From Nakamurella sp. A5-74 (GTDB taxonomy: Bacteria > Actinomycetota > Actinomycetes > Mycobacteriales > Nakamurellaceae), in NCBI RefSeq assembly GCF_040438885.1, contig NZ_CP159218.1, forward strand, positions 186,001 to 250,000: a stretch of DNA of 64,000 bases, written 5' to 3'. Positions 18,736 to 34,682 of this stretch are shown here, piece by piece. Numbering within the stretch: position 1 is the stretch's first letter; every line of letters starts with the position of its first letter. Below the pieces are notes generated by a model. The model worked only from the letters and a program-made list of their open reading frames with translations, did no database searches and had not been told where the DNA came from. The position numbers and the translations under genes are program-made.

Positions 18736-18850
18736 GGCGACTCTTCCGCGGCAGTGACAGTCGAAACGACGACAGGCGTCCTGGATCACGGCGGCCATGG
18801 CCTGATGGGCCAGCGGCTCCGCGAAATGCAGGGCCGCTGCGGTCAGGGCT
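18736..18850 (-). pseudogene. C-terminal scar of a RES-domain toxin gene
   Basis: Read on the minus strand this stretch encodes ALTAAALHFAEPLAH then MAAVIQDACRRF, closely matching the last ~35 residues of the intact RES toxin at 23.99-24.64 kb (ALTAATVHFAEPLAH, MIQDACGRL). The rest of the gene is missing. It lies immediately to the right of Wadjet, mirroring the NYN scar on the left. Confidence 0.75.
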
Positions 18851-20898: not shown

Positions 20899-21657
20899 CT
20901 GAATCCTGTCTTCTCAACGGTTGTCTCTTGTGACGTTGTCGTGGTGCGTGACCACAGGCATGTGGTGCGATGGCCTGGGCTGCAACAGGTGTGGTTGTGT
21001 CCACGGATCAATTTCTGCTGAAGGCGGCACGCGGCATGCCGGGTCTCAGCACGGCACGGCCCGCGGTCCGGGGGATCGTCATCGAGTGTGTGACTGTCGA
21101 GACTGACCCTGGCCGGTTCGGTCACGGCGTGGTGGCCGCGGCGCGTTGTGATGACCGCAGATCGAACGGTCATCGCCCGGGAGCGGAGTGGTGTGCGGCA
21201 GCGGCGCGTGATCGATTGCCGGCGCGATGGGGATGTTCCTGATGGCCAGGCGCCGAGAAGTGTCGTGCTGAAACACGGGTGTAGGTCGCGTGCGGCGTGG
21301 GCTCGGCCGGCGCGAGACCGTGCATCCGGTTGCCGACCGCCCGGCCAGGGACCACGCAAAGTCCGGGTCCAGGAGCGAGGTCGTGCCGACCACACACCCG
21401 TGGATATCAATCCAAGGCCGTTCATTCAAGTGCCCCCCGTTCAGCGATCGTCCACCACTTGACGTGGCGCACTATCGACCCCCGCCGACGTTGTGTACCG
21501 CCCCGTCCGGCATATTCCGCGGAGCCTATCGCGGACCGGCCGATGGCGCTCGGTTGTCCACAAGGAGCACGCGCAGGCAGGGCGCCCTGCGCTTGGCTGG
21601 GCCATCGGCTCTGTGGCAGGCGACCCGCCGAACCGGGTCCGCCGCGTGCTGCGGCGG
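20899..21657. other. 760-bp stretch without a recognisable gene
   Basis: Several GC-rich frames stay open here on both strands, but none has a recognisable domain, a good ribosome-binding site or protein-like composition. It may be decayed DNA, since it borders the ERCC4-Lsr2 pseudogene and other gene fragments. Confidence 0.4.
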
Positions 21658-22134
21658 TCAGCCCGGCTGCTCCGCCTCGAATGCCTCCCGCACCGCCGCC
21701 GGGATGCGGCCCCTGAGGTTCACCTCCACGCCGATGCGTGCAGCCCAGGCGCGGATCTCTGCCGCGGTCGCAGCTGCCGGCGAGCAGCGGGAGCCGGGCC
21801 AGCCGGCCGGAACGTGCCGGATTCCTCGGATACGTTCCGCTGCAACAGTTCTGCCCGGTACGCTCCGAGCCATCGGTAGGACCCCTCCTGCGCCAGCGGT
21901 CGGATCTCCGCGAACACGACGGCAATCTGGGGCTGACGAGCCTGCAGCTCGGCCAGCGCCTCGTCGACGGTGGCGCCGGCGACGTGCGGCAGTGCGAACA
22001 CCCTGCCGTAGCGATCTTCCACGACGATGGCAGTCCGCGGGAGCGACGCCAGCGCCGCCGCCGCCGCAAAACGGAGGTTGCCGTTCAGCAGCGACGATGA
22101 CCTCGCCGTCGAGTTCCACTGCGTAGTCGCCCGC
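21658..22134 (-). pseudogene. degraded ERCC4-nuclease/Lsr2 paralog
   Basis: Fragments in three frames line up with the C-terminal half of the intact protein at 25.25-26.22 kb: AGDYAVELDGEVIVA, then EDRYGRVFALPHVAGATVDE through RWLGAYRAELLQRNVSE, then the Lsr2-type tail EIRAWAARIGVEVNLRGRIP ending at 21658. The segment that holds the catalytic ERK motif in the intact copy is deleted, and the N-terminal half is absent. It is therefore a dead paralog. Confidence 0.85.
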
Positions 22135-22138
22135 CCGA

Positions 22139-22306
22139 TCAGCCGATCTCCGGCATCCAGCGGCGCTCGGGCATAGCCAGCTCGCCGGACGCCAGCAACT
22201 CTCGGATCTGAGGGAGGACCGCGGGGGTGATCTCCGGTGGCTGGTAGGTCATGGCATCGGAAACGAAATCGTCAGGCGCGGCGACACGGTGCAGGCAGAC
22301 GTAGTG
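22139..22306 (-). pseudogene. orphan C-terminal fragment of the immunity-like gene family
   Basis: The last ~55 codons (VAAPDDFVSDAMTYQPPEIT to PERRWMPEIG) match the C-terminus of the gene at 31.30-32.17 kb almost residue for residue. Upstream of this the similarity stops abruptly within another gene fragment. It is a truncated paralog, 5 bp from the ERCC4-Lsr2 pseudogene. Confidence 0.75.
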
Positions 22307-22530
22307 CGGACCATCGAGCTCCGATAGAAGTTGTTCTTTCGTCCGAAGTTGAACTTTGGGCCGGTCTTCGTCTCGATGGCGCCGGCGACCGACGGGCTGA
22401 CGGTGATCGGGACCAGGGACTGGGTCGGTGGTTGTGCCGGCTGGGAGGTGCAGGCGGACGTCTCCAGGACCGCAGCAGAGATCACGATCCAGGTCAGTCG
22501 CTTGAATGGAACCACTGTCGCCCCGTTCAC
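22249..22530 (-). CDS. possible truncated lipoprotein
   Basis: A 93-codon frame from GTG 22530 has a basic N-terminus, a hydrophobic stretch and a lipobox-like LETSAC, followed by a Pro/Thr linker and a short region ending in the fragment above in another frame. It looks like the first ~60 residues of a small lipoprotein gene joined to the orphan immunity tail. It may not be expressed. Confidence 0.3.
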   Translation of the reverse strand: MNGATVVPFKRLTWIVISAAVLETSACTSQPAQPPTQSLVPITVSPSVAGAIETKTGPKFNFGRKNNFYRSSMVRTTSACTVSPRLTISFPMP

Positions 22531-22660: not shown

Positions 22661-23898
22661 TCAGGCCGGTGACGGCTCGGCGGCGATCGACTCCCAGGCG
22701 GCGGCCCGGATGTCGAACCTTCTGCTGCTCGTCCTCCCAGGTGTCGAAGCCGAGATCGTTGGCGTAGCGCAGCAGTTCAGCGTCCAGGTGACGTGGCATC
22801 CGCGGACGCAGCGCGAGCATCGTGGACCGGTCGGCAGGGTCGGCGCGCATCGCCCAACGTCGCCCGTAGCGGTGTCCGATCTCCTCGGCGGTGAGGGCGC
22901 CGGTGTTGGCGTCCTCCTCGTTGTCGGACCACTTCTGCCGGTCGTCGGTCAGCTCGCGTAGTCGCGGCAGGTCAGGCGTCGGCGGCGCTGCCGGAGTCCC
23001 GAGATGACTCACTCCGCCGCCCCGGATGTACTCCCGCAACCGTTCCAGGTCGGCTCCGGTCGCGACAACCGTCTCGGCCGGCGGCACAGTCGGCTGGCCC
23101 GGTCGGTGCAGCACCGGCGGAACCACCGGGGACGAGCGGGGAGGTGTCGGCGTCGGTGCTGCGGCGGGCGCCGACTCGACGGGCGTGTGCTGGTTCGGCG
23201 CGGGCGGCTTCTCGGGGCTGACGGGCGCCTCGGACGGGACGGGCTGCTCGGCCGCGACCGCTTGCGGTGGGGCCTCGGGCTCCAGCCCCCGGGCCCACCG
23301 GCTCGAGAGGCTCCTGGGAGGGAACCGCGGGCGCGGTCGGCTGCCCGACCGGGCGGAGCGTCACGAACCGGCCGATCCACGCTGCGCTGATGATCCAGCG
23401 CCGGTCGGCTTCGGCGATCAACGTGTGCGACTGGTTGTACTCCGTCGCGGCAGCCTCGACACCGCACAGATGCACCTTGACGCCGTGGTCCTGGGCCTCG
23501 TCGACGCCCTGCCGCAGATCCTCGTCACCACCGATCAGCACCGCGTCCGAGATGGCCCCGTTGCGGGCCAGGGTGGTGAGGTCACGTCGCAAGTACGAAT
23601 CGACGCCCTTCTGCTGTACGCGTCCGCCGTGGGTGACGGTCAGCCCGAGCCGGACCTTCACGTCCGGCAGCAGACCCAGAGCTCGATGGTCCTGGGTCGG
23701 CCGACCGTCGCGTGCTCCGTCGAACCACAGTAACCGCAGCACCGGCACCCCGGTCTGCTCCGCGGCCTCGCCGGCGATCGCTCGCATCAGCTCTGCGTAG
23801 TTGACTGCCAGTCGGGTCCGGTTGGCGTCACCGCTGAGCACGGACGCAGCCGCTCCCAGCAGGTAACCCGCGTCGATCAACACTGCGCAGCGGTTCAT
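22661..23898 (-). pseudogene. NYN-domain RNase-like protein, two frameshifts
   Basis: The N-terminal ~170 residues form a NYN/PIN-like nuclease domain: MNRCAVLIDAGYLL (first catalytic Asp at residue 9), WFDGARDG, GVDSYLRRDL and LIGGDEDLRQGV. The proline-rich linker and C-terminal part (ADLERLREYIRGG, LRPRMPRHLDAELLRYAND, TWEDEQQKV) continue in a second frame after an apparent 1-nt shift near 23286, a C/G-rich run. The final DIRAAAWESIAAEPSPA needs a third frame because of an extra T near 22713. The same C-terminal sequence in the scar at 11.8 kb supports this reading. Either the gene is inactive or the assembly has homopolymer errors. It follows the RES toxin by about 90 bp. Confidence 0.75.
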
Positions 23899-23989: not shown

Positions 23990-24637
23990 CTACTGGCCGA
24001 GGAAGTGGTAGCCGAGTCGGCCGCAGGCGTCCTGGATCATCGCAGCCAACGCCGGATGGGCCAACGGTTCTGCGAAGTGGACGGTGGCAGCGGTCAGTGC
24101 CGCTTCCGCAGGTTCCCAGAGGGCGACGTTGAAGGCGCGGTCTCCGTGCATCGACGAGCCGTAGTGCAGCCCGCCGAGATCGGGGAACGCGGCGGCGATG
24201 GCCCGGGCCCAACTCTGGGTCCGTCGTCGATCGGGTGAGGTCCAGATCTCCTGGGATGCACCGGCTCTGGTCGGCCAGGTGCTGGTGAGGTCCACCAACT
24301 GCGCCGGACCAGCACCCAGCGTGAACTTGACCAGCCAGGGACTCCCGGCGCGGACGTCGACAGTGCGGTTGGTCCCGAACGCTTCGGCCAGGGCGGTCAC
24401 CGCATCGCCACCGGCATAGAGCACTCCGTGGTCCAGATGCTCGGCTGGGGGTGGCGGGTGAGGGTCGAAGCGAGCCGCGACAGGTCCCCAGCGCCGCAAC
24501 GTGTTCCAGGCTGTGGCATGCACGCTGGTCGTGGGGAAGATCCGCCACAGCGGTCCGCTGATCTCGATCAGATCGCCCCGTTGGTCGACTGGTGGCAGGG
24601 CCGCAGGAGGGCCTGGGAACTTGGGCGTGCCGCTCAC
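23990..24637 (-). CDS. RES-domain toxin (NAD+-degrading type), locus 1
   Basis: A 215-residue RES-family protein. RES toxins are NAD+ phosphorylases/glycohydrolases that deplete NAD+ until neutralised by their antitoxin. Family positions are visible: Arg32 in LWRIFP, Arg56 in ARFDPH, Tyr74 in GVLYAGGD, Glu85 in ALAEAFG, Arg91, and the late serine in YGSSMHG. The GTG start at 24637 overlaps the stop of the upstream antitoxin gene by 4 bp, the usual antitoxin-toxin order. Length fits the family. A RES fragment next to Wadjet and a second full RES gene at 34.0 kb show that the family is multiplied in this genome. Confidence 0.87.
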   Translation of the reverse strand: MSGTPKFPGPPAALPPVDQRGDLIEISGPLWRIFPTTSVHATAWNTLRRWGPVAARFDPHPPPPAEHLDHGVLYAGGDAVTALAEAFGTNRTVDVRAGSPWLVKFTLGAGPAQLVDLTSTWPTRAGASQEIWTSPDRRRTQSWARAIAAAFPDLGGLHYGSSMHGDRAFNVALWEPAEAALTAATVHFAEPLAHPALAAMIQDACGRLGYHFLGQ

Positions 24638-25167
24638 CAATTGTTGCCCATGTTGGCGATGACGACGGCTGCCGGTTTTCCGGCCGCCAGCCAGGCGATG
24701 GGGGTCACGATGTCGCCGTCCAGAGCCAGTGACGGGGTGGCCAGGTAGTTGTCGTAGCCGATCCACGACCAGTCGTCGGGAATGTGGGGGGACACCTTGT
24801 CCAGACCCCGTCGGAGTCGGCCCGCCTCGTCGAATTGGAACCGGGGGAACCGCTGCACCCCGTCGACCAGTACCGACACCAGCTCGCCTGCAGCGGCTCG
24901 GCTGCGGACTCGTCCAGCAGAGATGGCATTGTTGGCTGCCACCTCGGCGCCGGTGTGGGCGGTTGCGAGCTGGTTCTGGCGCACTGCTTCGGCGCTGAGC
25001 GCGTGGGTCGTGTCGATATGAGCATCCAGATGGAAGCCGGAGTCCGCCAACTCCGCGAGTTGGCCGGCGGTCAAGGGCACAGCAGGCTCGAGGATCTGTC
25101 GGAGGGCCCGCTCGGCCTGGTCGAGATCGACGTGATGGCGGACCAGCAGCTGGTCGAGAGTGGACAT
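24634..25167 (-). CDS. RES antitoxin, Xre/MbcA/ParS-like, locus 1
   Basis: A 177-residue protein encoded immediately upstream of, and overlapping, the RES toxin gene. The middle part (HTGAEVAANNAISAGRVRSR) reads as a helix-turn-helix, and the C-terminal half (GVQRFPRFQFDEAGRLRRG through LDGDIVTPIAWLAAGKP) resembles the DUF2384/MbcA toxin-binding domain, where the last helix plugs the RES active site. It should neutralise the toxin and autoregulate the pair. Assignment depends on context plus these weak motifs. Confidence 0.75.
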   Translation of the reverse strand: MSTLDQLLVRHHVDLDQAERALRQILEPAVPLTAGQLAELADSGFHLDAHIDTTHALSAEAVRQNQLATAHTGAEVAANNAISAGRVRSRAAAGELVSVLVDGVQRFPRFQFDEAGRLRRGLDKVSPHIPDDWSWIGYDNYLATPSLALDGDIVTPIAWLAAGKPAAVVIANMGNNW

Positions 25168-25252: not shown

Positions 25253-26224
25253 TCAGCTGTCGTGCCGTGCCTGGAAAGCCGCCCGCACCGTCGCCGGGAT
25301 CCGCCCTTTCGCGTTCACCTGCACGCCGGTCTCTTCGGCCCAGGCGCGGATTTCGGCGGCGCTGGCCTCGCTCGCTGGCTTCGGCGGTACCGGGCCGGCC
25401 GGTACGAACTCGTCGGTGTCCTCGGATGCTCTGTGCTGCAGCAGTTCTGCCCGGCAGGCACCCAGCCAGCGGTAGGACCATTCCTGCGCCAGCGGCCGAC
25501 TCTCGGTGAACACGACCGGGATCTGCGGATGGCGGGCCTGCAACTCGGCCAACGCCCCGGCGACCGTGGCGCCGGCGACGTGCGGCAGGTCAAAGACCTT
25601 GCTGTAGCGGTCTTCCACGACGATCGCGCCGCGAGGCAGCGTCGCCAGTTCGGCTGCCGCATACCGCAGCTTCCCGTTGAGCAGGGAGGATGCGAGGTCC
25701 TCGAGGGTCTTGCGTTCGACGGCGGCGATCACCTCGCCGTCGAGTTCCACCGCGTAGTCGCCGGCAGTCAGGCGCTGCCGGCGGGTGGTCGCCTGCTGCG
25801 CCGAGAACCGCCACGGGTACTTCTCGGCGCTGTCGACCAGGATCTCCAGGACCTGCCCGTGGGCGCGGGCTCTCGGCAGGGTGACGTTCGGGCGGGCCTG
25901 CTTCGTCGTCCGGGGCGACTGCCAGAACACCATCTCGCGGCCGCGGGCCATCGTGACGACGAACTGCGACCGGTTCTCCCGCGCACGCTCCAGGATCAGG
26001 TCGATGGCCGGTCCGCGGCGGGTGCAGGCGCGCACCGGCCAGCGTTCGATGATCTCCGCGTCCGCCGGCCACTCGGTCGACCGGTGACAGAACACCTTCG
26101 ACGCTCGGGGCCACGTCTCGCGCGCCTTCACCACGATTCCTTCGGCCCCGAGCGGGATGCGGACCAGGTAGGGCAGCTTCGAGTCGGGTTCGGGGTTGCG
26201 CGCGATCAGCAGGTCGTCCGGCAC
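25253..26224 (-). CDS. ERCC4-type nuclease fused to an Lsr2-like DNA-binding tail
   Basis: A 323-residue protein. The C-terminal half holds an ERCC4/XPF-type nuclease core: GDYAVELDGEVIAAVERKTLED with the catalytic ERKxxxD signature near residue 169, then GAIVVEDRYSKVF and the YRWLGACRAEL helix. The last ~40 residues (AEIRAWAEETGVQVNAKGRI) match the C-terminal DNA-binding domain of Lsr2, the actinobacterial xenogeneic silencer that grips AT-rich minor grooves. The N-terminal ~130 residues are unassigned. The GTG at 26224 is the first start after the repeat region. The fusion suggests a nuclease steered to foreign or AT-rich DNA, which is inference. Confidence 0.78.
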   Translation of the reverse strand: MPDDLLIARNPEPDSKLPYLVRIPLGAEGIVVKARETWPRASKVFCHRSTEWPADAEIIERWPVRACTRRGPAIDLILERARENRSQFVVTMARGREMVFWQSPRTTKQARPNVTLPRARAHGQVLEILVDSAEKYPWRFSAQQATTRRQRLTAGDYAVELDGEVIAAVERKTLEDLASSLLNGKLRYAAAELATLPRGAIVVEDRYSKVFDLPHVAGATVAGALAELQARHPQIPVVFTESRPLAQEWSYRWLGACRAELLQHRASEDTDEFVPAGPVPPKPASEASAAEIRAWAEETGVQVNAKGRIPATVRAAFQARHDS

Positions 26225-26302
26225 CGCTCCATGGTGGCACGAGCGCGTCGTCCCAGCGCTGATCGAGCAAGGAACGAGTCGAGATCCCGTATAGACCTGA
26301 AC

Positions 26303-26605
26303 ATGAGCGGCAGGGTCCGGGGAGCGATCGAGCGACCCCCCGTTGATCGAGCGACGGAGGAGTCGAGATCCCGTCCTGATCACATGAGCGGCAGGGTCCG
26401 GGGAGCGATCGAGCGACCCCCCGTTGATCGAGCGACGAAGGAGTCGAGATCCCGTCCTGATCACGCAGCCGCTCACGCTGGGCACGTTCGCTCACGGTCG
26501 AACGTGAGCGGCTGACCCGAACATGAGCGGCAGGGTCCGGGGAGCGATCGAGCGACCCCCCCGTTGATCGAGCGACGAAGGAGTCGAGATCCCGTCCTGA
26601 TCAGG
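26303..26605. repeat. interspersed repeat cluster 2, 81-bp tandem units
   Basis: Three nearly identical units begin at 26303, 26384 and 26524, each reading gcggcagggtccggggagcg, then two GATCGAGCGAC cores, then gtcgagatcccgtcctgatc. The first two are in direct tandem (period 81); the third follows a 59-bp hairpin segment. It is the same extragenic repeat family as at 6.6, 31.1 and 40.3 kb. Confidence 0.88.
26466..26514. repeat. 12-bp perfect inverted repeat within repeat cluster 2
   Basis: cagccgctcacg at 26466-26477 pairs with cgtgagcggctg at 26503-26514. The intervening 25 bases contain a second smaller inverted repeat (cgttcg / cgaacg). The same hairpin recurs at 31225-31294. Confidence 0.8.
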
Positions 26606-26779
26606 CAGCCGCTCACGCTGGGAACGTCCGCCCATTCAATGCCGGACGACGCCGATCAGGTCGACCACGCCGGCCGTGGACAGTAGACGCGGCTGATGGC
26701 CGCGTCGCTGGGTCTCTGTGTTGACAAGGGTTCCTGCCACGAGACGGGACAGCCGTGCGCTGGGGGTACGGTTGGGAGA

Positions 26780-26872
26780 GACCCCCGGGGAGCGCCGATC
26801 GGCGCTGAGAGTGCGGATTGCCCGCAGACCCGTCAACCTGATCCGGTTCGTACCGGCGTAGGGAGCAGGGTG
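26780..26872 (+). ncRNA. TPP riboswitch (THI element)
   Basis: All conserved landmarks of a thiamine-pyrophosphate aptamer are present: a P1 stem of accc near 26781 with gggt near 26870, ggggagc followed by a GC-rich P3 hairpin, the invariant ctgaga at 26805-26810, acctgatccgg around 26836-26846, and the closing gtaccggcgtaggga. It lies about 65 bp upstream of ykoF and should shut off the operon when TPP is plentiful, most likely at translation initiation because no T-rich terminator follows. Confidence 0.95.
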
Positions 26873-26935
26873 CCTGTCCGACATCGGAAGTCGGCGCGGG
26901 TCCTTGATATATCCGCGGGCCTGAGGGGACCCGTG

Positions 26936-31107: not shown

Positions 31108-31220
31108 TCGATCGAGCGGACCCCCGTCGATCGAGCGACCCCCCCGTTGATCGAGCGACCCCCCCGTTGATCGAGCGACCCCCGTTGATCGAGCGACGAA
31201 GGAGTCGAGATCCCGTCCTG
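31108..31220. repeat. interspersed repeat cluster 3
   Basis: Four to five consecutive copies of gatcgagcgaccccc(cc)gtt followed by one full gatcgagcgacgaaggagtc copy and gagatcccgtcctg. The short unit (18-20 bp) is the internal half of the longer repeat seen at 26.3 kb, expanded in tandem. Confidence 0.85.
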
Positions 31221-31224
31221 GCCC

Positions 31225-31300: not shown

Positions 31301-32170
31301 TCAGCCGGAAACTGGCATCCAACGACGCTCGGGGCGTGCGAGATCGCCAGAGTCCAGCAACTCTCGGATCTGACGAAGAACAGCAGCGGTGATCTCTGGT
31401 GGCTGGTAGGTCATGGCATCGGCGACGAAATCGACCGGTGCTGCGACACCGTGCAGGCGGACGTAGTGGGCGTAGTCCTCCCGCCAGACGTACTTGCCGT
31501 CGGTGCGGATCGTCCGGGGAGCGACTCTCGTCCACGCGGGGTGCAGGACATCGTCGGAACGGTCTCGGGTGTTCTCGATGACCACCGGAGATCGGCGAAA
31601 TCGGGCGGCGACCGCTCGGTGGACCGCATAGGGCAGGGGGCGTTGAGCGAGTACTCGCATCACTGCTGTGTCAGCGTCTTTACCCCACACGTCGCCGATG
31701 ACTCTCAACGATGCAGTGTTGATGGCGTTGATCGTCGACGCCTCCCGCCAAGCGCTGCGCGCAAAACCGATGTTGCCGCCCTCCGACAGGGTTGGCAGGA
31801 CCGTCTCGTGCAGTTCGGTCCACAGTTCCCTGGTCCGGCCCTGCGCCTCCGCAAAGTTGCCCTGCTCGTGAAGGCAGTGGTCGACAACCTCTTCGGACAG
31901 CCCGATGCCGTACTCACGCACGAAGGCAGCAGCAGAGTCGCGCCAGTGGTAGATCCCGTCGGTCATCCAGTTCCCGGGACTGCGACAACTCGCCCGCCCC
32001 TGCAACGGATCATCGATGGCACTCATCCATGACGGGCCTATCAGCACGCCCTGCTCGAGGTAGCGCGCGATGGGTTCGCGCAAGTCAGGATGTAGTTGCT
32101 GGGTCAGCGGCCAGAGAAGGCCTGTGTCACCGGCAAATGGCGTCCCGAAGATGCCCAAAGGCTTGAGCAC
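31301..32170 (-). CDS. probable immunity protein for the adjacent T7SS-type toxin
   Basis: A 289-residue soluble protein with no recognised domain. It begins at or just after the end of the toxin gene (GTG at 32170, preceded by AAAGGTGA; GTG 32179 is also possible) and shares its operon. Its C-terminus (DFVADAMTYQPPEITAAVL to PERRWMPVSG) has a truncated paralog at 22.1 kb. A gene of this size directly downstream of a polymorphic toxin is usually the immunity protein, and orphan immunity fragments are a normal trait of such loci. This is inference from position; it could instead be an accessory protein. Confidence 0.5.
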   Translation of the reverse strand: MLKPLGIFGTPFAGDTGLLWPLTQQLHPDLREPIARYLEQGVLIGPSWMSAIDDPLQGRASCRSPGNWMTDGIYHWRDSAAAFVREYGIGLSEEVVDHCLHEQGNFAEAQGRTRELWTELHETVLPTLSEGGNIGFARSAWREASTINAINTASLRVIGDVWGKDADTAVMRVLAQRPLPYAVHRAVAARFRRSPVVIENTRDRSDDVLHPAWTRVAPRTIRTDGKYVWREDYAHYVRLHGVAAPVDFVADAMTYQPPEITAAVLRQIRELLDSGDLARPERRWMPVSG

Positions 32171-32171
32171 G

Positions 32172-33773
32172 TCATTCACCTTTCTCGCTCGGGCGCGGAC
32201 CTGACGGCACCATCGATGGACTGTCCGACGACTTGGGCCAGAACTGCTGGAGTTCAGCCTCGACAGCGAACGGGTCTCCGTTCTCGTCGAAGTGCTTCGC
32301 CCAGACCATCCCATCTTCGTCGAGGGCTACTTCGTGCTGCGAGGCACGCACGGGCACTCCCAGCTGATCAGCGAGCTCTTGGGCGCTGCCCCGGGCGGCG
32401 TGGCAGGAGATGAACCTGACCGGTGTCCCGGGGACGTAGTGAGGTGAGGCACGAACAGCATCGGCGACCTGTCCGGTGCCGATGGCATGGTCGTTGCCTC
32501 GTCCCTCGTGCCTGGTGAAACCTTGAGGCGCTGTGGGGCGACCATCTGCGAGTCCGTGCACGACTACATCGTGCTCGCCCGGAGAGGTTCCCGCGTGGCC
32601 TCGGTTCAGGATCGTGACGTCGTCACCTCCGACAGTGGTGACGAGCGGGTCGTGCCAGACCGGTTGACCTGTGCGGAGACGGTCGTCAGGGTTCCGGGGC
32701 CAGTAGGGCTCGCGTTCGACCTCGCGGAAGGGGACCTCCCGGTATTCGCGGAGTTCTTTGCGGTTGGGTCGATCGCCCATCCACGAGGGCTTCGCACTGT
32801 TGGCCGTCTTCGACCCGGGGTACTTCGCGCCGCCACTGTTCTTCAGCCCGCGCACTCCGAACGCGGTCGTCATCGCGAGGTCTTCCCAGCCGGCCTTGCC
32901 TTGGGCCACGTTGACCGCGGTCACTCCGACGGTGCCGACGGCCACCACTTTTGCGGCACGGGCCCCCGGGATCATCGAGGCGCCGTCCATCAGGATCTGG
33001 CCCCAGTCGCCCTCACCGGTCATCACCTTCACGCCGGCATCGAGGCCGACTGCTGCTGCGCCGGCACCGATCGCGATCGGACCCATCACCGGAGCGAGGA
33101 TCGGGATCATCGCCAACAGCCCGGCGATCGACGACAGCTGCTTCAGCGCGCCGGAGATGAACCTGATGACGTCCGCGTGTTCGGCTACCCAGGTGCAGGC
33201 CGCGTTCCACACCCGTCCCCAGAACCCCGGCGGTTCCTCGAAGCGCAGCACCTTCGCCCGGTCGATCTCGGCACCGCACCGTGCCACCGACTGGCGATGC
33301 TCGGCGAGGACGCCGTTGGCGGCGTCGGTGGTGCGCTGCACCGTGAGTTGCGCTTCGGTCAGTCGGGTATCGGCAGCCCGGGCAGCTGGAACTGCCTGCG
33401 CCGCAGCATCATCGCCCGGTTGGCGGGCTGCGACGCGTGCGCGGTCGACATTCGCTCGGCGTGAATCAACCAGCTGTTGTTGGTGCTGCGCATCGGCATC
33501 GAGCCGCGCCAGTCTGCTCTGGTAGGACTCCAACTCATCGGCGTACAGGGTGAGCGCCGCTCCGACGATGCCCCAACTCTCTGCGGTCCGGGCGAGTTGG
33601 GGCGGGAGCCCGTCGTTCATCCGTTGCCGGTAGGTGTCGGCCTCGTCGCCGAGGAACTGCTGGGCATCCAGCCGCAGGATGTCGTCACCGGCAGCTGTCG
33701 CGCTCTGCGCGAACGACGACCACTGCCGCCCCGAGCCCCGGATCGAAGCCGGATCGCCGCACAGCGTGAACAT
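32172..33773 (-). CDS. polymorphic toxin with T7SS-type N-terminal domain
   Basis: A 533-residue protein of polymorphic-toxin design. Residues 1-~100 form a helical WXG100-like/T7SS-signal domain (FTLCGDPASIRGSG, LPPQLARTAESWGIVGAALTLYADELESYQ), followed by an Ala/Arg-rich coiled coil, a WNAACTWVAEHADVIRFI segment and a hydrophobic Ala/Gly region (about 215-285). The C-terminal ~130 residues vary in style and contain HGLADGRP, HAIGTGQV and PVRFISCHAARGSAQELADQ, a His/Cys arrangement reminiscent of C80-like cysteine-peptidase toxin domains. The enzymatic assignment is tentative. ATG 33773. No T7SS apparatus gene is inside the window. Confidence 0.72.
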   Translation of the reverse strand: MFTLCGDPASIRGSGRQWSSFAQSATAAGDDILRLDAQQFLGDEADTYRQRMNDGLPPQLARTAESWGIVGAALTLYADELESYQSRLARLDADAQHQQQLVDSRRANVDRARVAARQPGDDAAAQAVPAARAADTRLTEAQLTVQRTTDAANGVLAEHRQSVARCGAEIDRAKVLRFEEPPGFWGRVWNAACTWVAEHADVIRFISGALKQLSSIAGLLAMIPILAPVMGPIAIGAGAAAVGLDAGVKVMTGEGDWGQILMDGASMIPGARAAKVVAVGTVGVTAVNVAQGKAGWEDLAMTTAFGVRGLKNSGGAKYPGSKTANSAKPSWMGDRPNRKELREYREVPFREVEREPYWPRNPDDRLRTGQPVWHDPLVTTVGGDDVTILNRGHAGTSPGEHDVVVHGLADGRPTAPQGFTRHEGRGNDHAIGTGQVADAVRASPHYVPGTPVRFISCHAARGSAQELADQLGVPVRASQHEVALDEDGMVWAKHFDENGDPFAVEAELQQFWPKSSDSPSMVPSGPRPSEKGE

Positions 33774-34019: not shown

Positions 34020-34682
34020 CTAGAGGATGACGCCGTAACCGATCTGGGCCGCCGCTCGCTCGACGGCGTTCATCATGGAGCGCAGAGGTGCTGACAGTGC
34101 GGGCGCTGGTGGGAGTGAGGTCGCGGCACGCTCCCAGAGGGCGACTGCTCGTCCGGCGGGATTCACCGACGAGGAGTAGGCGATGCCCTCGATCGTGGGG
34201 TAACGGAGATGGATCTCCCTGGCCCACTTGCGAGCTTGGGACCGTTCGCCCGAGCAGATCGCGGCGTTCCCGCCGGCGCTCGTGACCCAGTCGGTGTCGC
34301 CGATGTCGAGCACCCTGACCGGCCGCGCCAGTGTGAAGACCGCGTGATGATCCAGAGTTCCGTCCGGGTCGACAGTTTTCCGGCCCTGGTAGTACTCGCC
34401 GATCGAACAGGTGAATGCGGGATATGCCTTGCTGTGTTGGATGATTCCTGCCCTGCCGAGGTACATGACACCCATGGTGGGGTGGTCGCCGACGGGGTCT
34501 GGGTGGTGGTCGAAGCGGCTGCCGGTGGGGCCCCAACTGCGGAAGGTGTTCCATCGGGTCGGGTGTGGACCGCCGGCGGGAAAGAGTCGACTCAGCGCCG
34601 TCCCGGTCGGTAGTTCCAAGATCCATCGGTGTGGATCGGACGGCCAGGCGCGCGGGTTGGGGTCGGGCAGTCGTTCACTCAC
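34020..34682 (-). CDS. RES-domain toxin, locus 2
   Basis: A 220-residue RES-family protein paralogous to the one at 24.0 kb. Matching positions are Arg32 in SRLFPA, Arg56 in SRFDHH, Tyr74 in GVMYLGR, a Glu in SIGEYY (about residue 96) followed by GRK, and the late serines in GIAYSSSVNPAG. The spacing before the catalytic Glu differs from locus 1, so the two toxins are distant paralogs rather than a recent duplication. GTG 34682 overlaps the antitoxin stop by 8 bp. Expected activity is NAD+ depletion. Confidence 0.8.
   Translation of the reverse strand: MSERLPDPNPRAWPSDPHRWILELPTGTALSRLFPAGGPHPTRWNTFRSWGPTGSRFDHHPDPVGDHPTMGVMYLGRAGIIQHSKAYPAFTCSIGEYYQGRKTVDPDGTLDHHAVFTLARPVRVLDIGDTDWVTSAGGNAAICSGERSQARKWAREIHLRYPTIEGIAYSSSVNPAGRAVALWERAATSLPPAPALSAPLRSMMNAVERAAAQIGYGVIL

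Follow-up and report, generated by a model that had tools for sequence, protein, structure and literature searches.

An accessory ERCC4-type nuclease of Nakamurella with a predicted phosphoesterase-fold N-terminal domain and an Lsr2-type tail

In this study, a 64,000-nt stretch of the Nakamurella sp. A5-74 genome (contig NZ_CP159218.1, positions 186,001 to 250,000; hereafter the window, in whose numbering positions are given) was analyzed for a gene that a first-pass annotation had described as an ERCC4-type nuclease fused to an Lsr2 DNA-binding domain. The gene and the parts of its product were located as follows.

25253–26224, minus strand: ERCC4-Lsr2 nuclease gene, an ORF of 323 aa with a GTG start; Pfam ERCC4 and Lsr2_DNA-bd above cut-offs
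25907–26224, minus strand: all-beta N-terminal domain, residues 1–106; predicted LigD 3′-phosphoesterase (PE) fold without the catalytic triad
25472–25837, minus strand: ERCC4 nuclease domain, residues 130–251; Pfam E 6.1e-15, XPF/Hef structures at Z 15–16
25697–25717, minus strand: catalytic ERKxxxD motif (ERKTLED, residues 170–176), from the translation
25268–25369, minus strand: Lsr2 DNA-binding domain, residues 286–319; Pfam E 8.4e-11
25301–25309, minus strand: AT-hook-like KGR motif of the Lsr2 tail, residues 306–308, from the translation

The fusion was borne out at 25253–26224. Pfam placed ERCC4 at residues 130–251 (55.8 bits versus a cut-off of 24) and Lsr2_DNA-bd at residues 286–319 (41.5 bits versus a cut-off of 26.9), the ERKxxxD motif was intact, and weaker agreement on the domain calls came from PHROGs and a sequence search of the PDB. 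A third module, absent from the annotation, was found in residues 1–106, which form a separate PE-fold domain; together with the ERCC4 domain and a linker it makes up residues 1–285. The full-length structure model, based on 63 sequences, had a mean pLDDT of 91.8. With 70.6% G+C overall and 88.9% at third codon positions, against 66.6% for the window, the gene is not AT-rich itself.

In the predicted model, residues 125–260 matched Aeropyrum pernix XPF (Z 16.0) and Pyrococcus furiosus Hef (Z 15.3), the nuclease-fold structures 2bgw, 2bhn, 1j24, and 1j22 being recovered at Z 15.1–16.0. Among 89 aligned members of the family, the window protein included, D131, E134, G155, D156, Y157, E170, R171, K172, and R243 were invariant (89/89), and position 176 of ERKxxxD was D in 78 and N in 11. 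By domain score, catalytic residues and predicted fold, the window protein belongs to the ERCC4 (XPF-type) nuclease superfamily, and it has in common with XPF, MUS81, and Hef the nuclease fold and catalytic residues of the GD...ERKxxxD type. XPF, MUS81, and Hef carry a tandem helix-hairpin-helix domain after the nuclease, and XPF and Hef proper have a helicase part besides. The window protein is different in that Pfam found no helicase or helix-hairpin-helix match at E ≤ 1, the PE-fold domain and the Lsr2 tail being present instead, and it scored 32.4 against the NCBIfam Hef equivalog with a cut-off of 610.

Modelled alone with AlphaFold, the N-terminal domain had a pLDDT of 88.8. In the VIA structure comparison its first six matches were all LigD PE domains (Z 8.0–11.0), followed by a match at 3.7. 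The best of them, 3p43 (Z 11.0, rmsd 2.9 over 103 residues), also ranked first in Foldseek, with TM 0.67, probability 1.00 and a modest E of 5.1e-3. As modelled, residues 1–106 are a PE-fold domain. Proof of this at the sequence level was sought and not obtained: Pfam gave no LigD_N (PF13298) match in the window protein at E ≤ 1; neither an hhalign comparison of 36 N-terminal domains with 19 LigD_N domains nor its repetition with richer alignments and in global mode yielded a significant link (probability at most 0.3%); and hmmsearch of the PDB returned only three neurofibromin sequences at E 0.8. Since no sequence link was found, the likeness to PE is one of predicted fold rather than of demonstrated common descent.

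The LigD PE active site requires His42, His48, and Asp50, according to an excerpt of PMC8656161. The H-x5-H-x-D triad pattern was seen in 0 of 89 family members versus 19 of 19 LigD_N control domains, and the N-terminal domain probably has no PE activity. The family thus differs from LigD PE in the catalytic triad pattern and in sequence match while sharing its predicted fold, and it differs in its partners as well, LigD PE being joined to a ligase or polymerase and the window domain to a nuclease. With a PE fold from which the active site is absent, the domain most likely grips DNA rather than cleaves it. Could it instead be an active 3′-end-healing enzyme with a rearranged active site, trimming blocked 3′ ends before the protein cuts? 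The PE fold matched in VIA and Foldseek would suit such an enzyme, as would the many conserved polar and aromatic residues, namely W38, P39, G71, R80, R85, and F100 (89/89) and the near-invariant W52 and W101 (88 each), C46 (87), and N10 (84). However, the Mn-binding His-His-Asp pattern is missing in all 89 members, and H47 and D75, which of the His and Asp positions counted in this domain are the best conserved, are both lost in the six members that carry a different tail. An active enzyme is therefore regarded as very improbable. Separately, a small LigD_N-like family (L137, L138, L139, L141, L142, and L143) was observed that keeps the triad pattern and scores below the other LigD_N matches; the genome of the window has a single LigD_N match, which is the member L139.

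The Lsr2 tail aligned weakly (E 0.02) with the solved Lsr2 domains 6qkq, 6qkp, and 2kng. Of the 64 Lsr2-tailed members, 64 have G307, 62 have R308 and 60 have R or K at position 306. As described in excerpts of PMC4466236, Lsr2 has a two-domain plan and prefers AT-rich DNA, and both H-NS and Lsr2 contact the minor groove of AT-rich DNA through a Q/RGR loop. Because this minor-groove motif is kept, the tail is likely to bind DNA, judging from its sequence. What the window protein has in common with Lsr2 is the C-terminal DNA-binding domain with the R/KGR minor-groove loop; Lsr2 itself is a filament-forming silencer, whereas the window protein carries one Lsr2 DNA-binding module on an enzyme, and no Lsr2 N-terminal (oligomerisation) family was among its Pfam matches at E ≤ 1.

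Tails differed among the 89 aligned members: 64 had the Lsr2 tail, 19 had none and 6 had another tail. The last group consisted of L105–L109, from the same phylum, and a Treponema member (L045), with the N-terminal domain and nuclease as in the rest. Pfam matches in the tails of 4 of these 6 were only sub-threshold and helix-turn-helix-like (HTH_20, E 0.061, in L108; RPA_C, E 0.15, in L045); by eye the tail shared by the six looks winged-helix-like, which is weak evidence. Since the same nuclease occurs with an Lsr2 tail, with no tail or with another tail, the core works with several tails.

These observations bear on the proposal of the first-pass annotation that the fusion is a nuclease targeted to xenogeneic DNA. 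Put in full, the proposal is a defence nuclease whose Lsr2 tail would bring the ERCC4 domain to AT-rich foreign DNA such as that of phages or plasmids, the GC-rich host genome being spared or covered by Lsr2. DNA binding by the tail is likely, as the minor-groove motif is kept and Lsr2 prefers AT-rich DNA (PMC4466236, as excerpted), but the targeting part of the proposal was left unsupported, since 19 of 89 members have no tail and 6 of 89 have a different one on the same invariant core. In addition, the only PADLOC match of the window protein was weak (E 0.014) and lay in the Lsr2 part of a methyltransferase model.

The annotation had also reported a dead paralog nearby and an adjacent RES toxin pair, and the following features were found downstream of the nuclease gene.

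21655–22134, minus strand: dead paralog corresponding to the 3′ half of the nuclease gene; repeat families D1, D5, and D8, tblastn and three-frame translation
23990–24766, minus strand: RES-domain gene; Pfam RES E 1.6e-15, true start perhaps a GTG near 24637 (by eye)
24634–25167, minus strand: 177-aa ORF, putative RES partner, upstream of the RES gene and downstream of the nuclease gene

The dead paralog was confirmed. It matches the 3′ part of the nuclease gene in three blocks with 79, 74, and 87% DNA identity, lacks the N-terminal domain and is frameshifted twice, between GDY..ER and the next helix and again before the Lsr2 tail. For the pair, only the RES gene could be upheld: the expected partner in a RES-Xre toxin-antitoxin pair is an antitoxin of Xre/DUF2384 type, but the 177-aa ORF had no Pfam match at E ≤ 1, and its NCBIfam matches were sub-threshold and to models other than antitoxins. 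That a RES gene adjoins the nuclease gene would agree with a defence role, but no homolog of the RES pair was found at the other loci (L002–L124), many of which were covered with 1.5-kb flanks only.

Several further features were observed in the window. Three copies of an 81-bp dispersed repeat (26301–26381, 26382–26462, and 26522–26602) stand immediately upstream of the nuclease gene, and another is at 31143–31223; the 32-base core of the repeat occurs 66 times in the genome with up to 3 mismatches and 0 times in a reversed control. A RES C-terminal fragment is located at 18742–18849, a RES-like stretch with 33.5% identity at 34026–34595 (no Pfam match in the frame scanned), and a fragment of a 337-aa protein (31301–32314) at 22142–22348, adjoining the dead ERCC4 copy. 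The region looks repeatedly duplicated and decayed. A TPP riboswitch (26776–26883, 67.6 bits) lies upstream of a YKOF-family gene, and a NYN-domain gene (22972–23898) separates the dead paralog from the RES gene; a NYN gene is also annotated on a 21-kb mycobacterial plasmid carrying the nuclease.

Of 17 genomes sampled in the genus, 5 (that of the window included) had relatives by protein search, as did 35 of 298 genomes of the order and 38 of 396 genomes of the phylum, the samples of the order and phylum being restricted to genomes of at least 90% completeness. In a search with the ERCC4 family, the five carriers alone matched among the 17 genus genomes, and four of 14 named control genomes matched, all of them archaea. 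Families within the order differed in carriage by hand count (f13, 0/61; f12, 1/61; f6, 13/62; f14, 11/58). A named genome collection contained 36 loci, from Gordonia, Williamsia, Mycobacterium, Pseudonocardia, Tessaracoccus, Georgenia and other actinobacteria and from one Treponema, and 23 plasmid records carried the family, some of them 21-kb plasmids. Carriage by phages or viruses amounted to two weak ERCC4-core matches in IMG/VR and, among phage records, Halorubrum tailed virus 27 only (28% identity).

A tree was built from 89 cores. Left out were the dead-paralog loci (L002–L004), broken or frameshifted copies (L021, L040, L044, L046, L065, L072, L074, and L110), partial or cut copies (L020, L035, L038, and L078), and duplicates or over-long frames (L028, L054, L069, L086, and L112); matches from the genome searches without an assigned locus entered only where the sequence was retrieved. 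Of the copies set aside as broken, two (L072 and L074) are perhaps intact genes that lack a tail. Grouping of the five copies of the genus in one clade was rejected (p_AU 6.7e-39). On this tree the tails need three changes, and a clade of the Lsr2-tailed rows with two tail-less Gordonia rows was not rejected (p_AU 0.31); the latter, L013 and L015, are nested in the tailed group, and the tail was therefore lost there. The presence of several broken copies shows the gene to be dispensable. The gene is thus accessory, patchy and horizontally moved. This is not the pattern of a conserved housekeeping gene, a possibility that the first-pass annotation had raised: only 5 of the 17 genus genomes carry the gene, and their five copies do not form one clade.

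For the neighbourhoods, gene calls came from a simple composition script applied to 64 loci; at 9 of these the script failed to call the nuclease itself. The commonest neighbour family, short-chain dehydrogenases, was present at 12 of 64 loci and the other families reflected close kinship, so no fixed partner gene exists across these loci. An apparent PIF1-like helicase partner at 9 loci proved to be an artefact of antisense frames of the ERCC4 gene in the cluster; a clean search found such a helicase at two loci (L025 and L123), with one further short partial match.

Defence genes were surveyed with PADLOC in a near set of 144 proteins within 3 kb of the nuclease, from 22 of 34 selected loci (150 rows taken, less 6 left out), and a far set of 118 proteins at least 6 kb away, from 27 loci (6 of 124 rows left out). 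At E ≤ 1e-5, 62 PADLOC families were matched in the near set versus 9 in the far set, families and not proteins being counted. This difference, together with one near protein matching DrmD (E 5.8e-41) and a gene that is patchy and horizontally moved, is what a defence nuclease would lead one to expect. However, the near families were mostly matched by only one or two proteins and some are variants of one model (PD-T4-6), while the commonest were generic (oxidoreductase, mad3, and AriA), with mad2, mad3, mad8, and AriA found in the far set too. When ten long neighbours, the DrmD-matching protein not being one of them, were scanned singly, 0 of 10 matched PADLOC, and no defence system could be recognised next to the gene at the loci examined. 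The survey of homolog neighbourhoods that the annotation had suggested therefore gave an excess of families near the gene without a recognised system, and its wider proposal is weakened further by the RES pair being confined to the window among the loci compared and by the nuclease gene being itself carried on 23 plasmid records. On balance, a defence nuclease aimed at foreign DNA is considered unlikely.

Toxin-antitoxin-type neighbours recurred and differed from locus to locus: RES in the window, PIN at L024, L033, L039, and L124, Fic at L114 and L121, and HipA at L048, the PIN and Fic genes having been identified by scanning one member per cluster with Pfam. The other-tailed L107, L108, and L109 lie among genes of this type (PIN, HEPN/HepT, ParE, and nucleotidyltransferases).

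Transposition or recombination genes were often close to the nuclease on plasmids. On the 21-kb plasmid inspected, a recombinase gene lies two genes away from the nuclease gene and parA is nearby; at another locus the nuclease gene is beside a Tn7-like set (annotated as TnsA-like, Mu transposase C-terminal, ATP-binding, and TniQ), and at others beside a resolvase or IS21 istB. In two Pseudonocardia loci (L042, 7050–9998; L053, 4174–7121) the nuclease follows the same large protein, annotated as DUF4158/transposase in L053, with a resolvase nearby; here the nuclease is perhaps a transposon passenger. Such surroundings, the shared upstream protein and the 23 plasmid records would be in keeping with a helper of mobile elements, which would process intermediates of plasmid or transposon recombination or replication, or exclude competing elements. 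Nevertheless, no two kinds of locus have the same mobile neighbours, the near and far sets, taken around copies from the genome collection, were dominated by metabolic Pfam families (among the 25 commonest listed), and viral carriage came to the two weak IMG/VR matches and the one Halorubrum virus noted above. This role is judged to be quite unlikely.

A link to end joining was considered and rejected. At the order level, Ku was present in 34 of 35 carriers and 255 of 263 non-carriers (p 1.0), and LigD-type PE in 20 of 35 carriers and 186 of 263 non-carriers (p 0.12), the latter being a hand count in which E below 1e-30 was taken as LigD-type; within the genus, LigD-type PE was present in 2 of 5 carriers and 10 of 12 others (p 0.12). 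The gene is independent of Ku, and the association with LigD-type PE was not significant at either level; thus, no repair pathway is tied to the gene.

The explanation that we favour, with fair though not strong confidence, is that the window protein is a stand-alone structure-specific endonuclease of the XPF/Hef type, with DNA-gripping domains at its ends, which is accessory and horizontally moved and acts in repair or recombination. In such an enzyme, the central ERCC4 domain would be the catalytic part, with the GDY and ERKxxxD residues serving metal-dependent cutting. For the PE-fold N-terminal domain the most likely task is to grip DNA, possibly at a junction or a 3′ end, and the Lsr2 domain, standing where XPF, MUS81, and Hef have their tandem helix-hairpin-helix domain, would insert its R/KGR loop into the minor groove and hold the enzyme on DNA. 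The protein probably forms a homodimer, which would process flapped or branched DNA during repair or recombination, and it is encoded by an accessory gene that is gained and lost by horizontal transfer. Its cutting activity, substrate, dimeric state, grip on DNA through the N-terminal domain and role in repair are what we infer; the role in repair or recombination, in particular, is most likely by analogy with the superfamily and is not drawn from gene context.

XPF-type nucleases are usually regarded as archaeal and eukaryotic, and we know of no other case in which the LigD end-healing fold is joined to an XPF nuclease. RefSeq proteins on actinobacterial plasmids, named by domain only as "ERCC4 domain-containing protein" or "histone-like nucleoid-structuring protein Lsr2", are of the same family, with 48–64% identity in the 22 of 23 records covering at least 80% of the protein. 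Within the literature library searched, no paper had both ERCC4 and Lsr2, nor was there one on bacterial XPF with ERCC4 or on these plasmid proteins, and the papers retrieved on ERCC4 domain-containing proteins or ERCC4-type nucleases, PMC11377751 among them, appeared to concern other families than that of the window protein. Tentatively, and at somewhat less than even confidence, the family may represent a bacterial line of XPF-type nucleases not described before. In it, a catalytically dead PE-fold domain would sense a junction or 3′ end, with the ERCC4 domain cutting beside it and the DNA preference set by an exchangeable tail (Lsr2, winged-helix-like or none); the family would then be a single-protein, helicase-free counterpart of Hef/XPF, traded on actinobacterial plasmids and chromosomes.

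A patchy bacterial branch with this new set of modules would show how an XPF-type nuclease acts without a helicase or helix-hairpin-helix domain, and would connect an XPF nuclease with the end-healing fold of LigD. The exchange of tails on one invariant core would also allow a direct test of what an Lsr2 module contributes to an enzyme.
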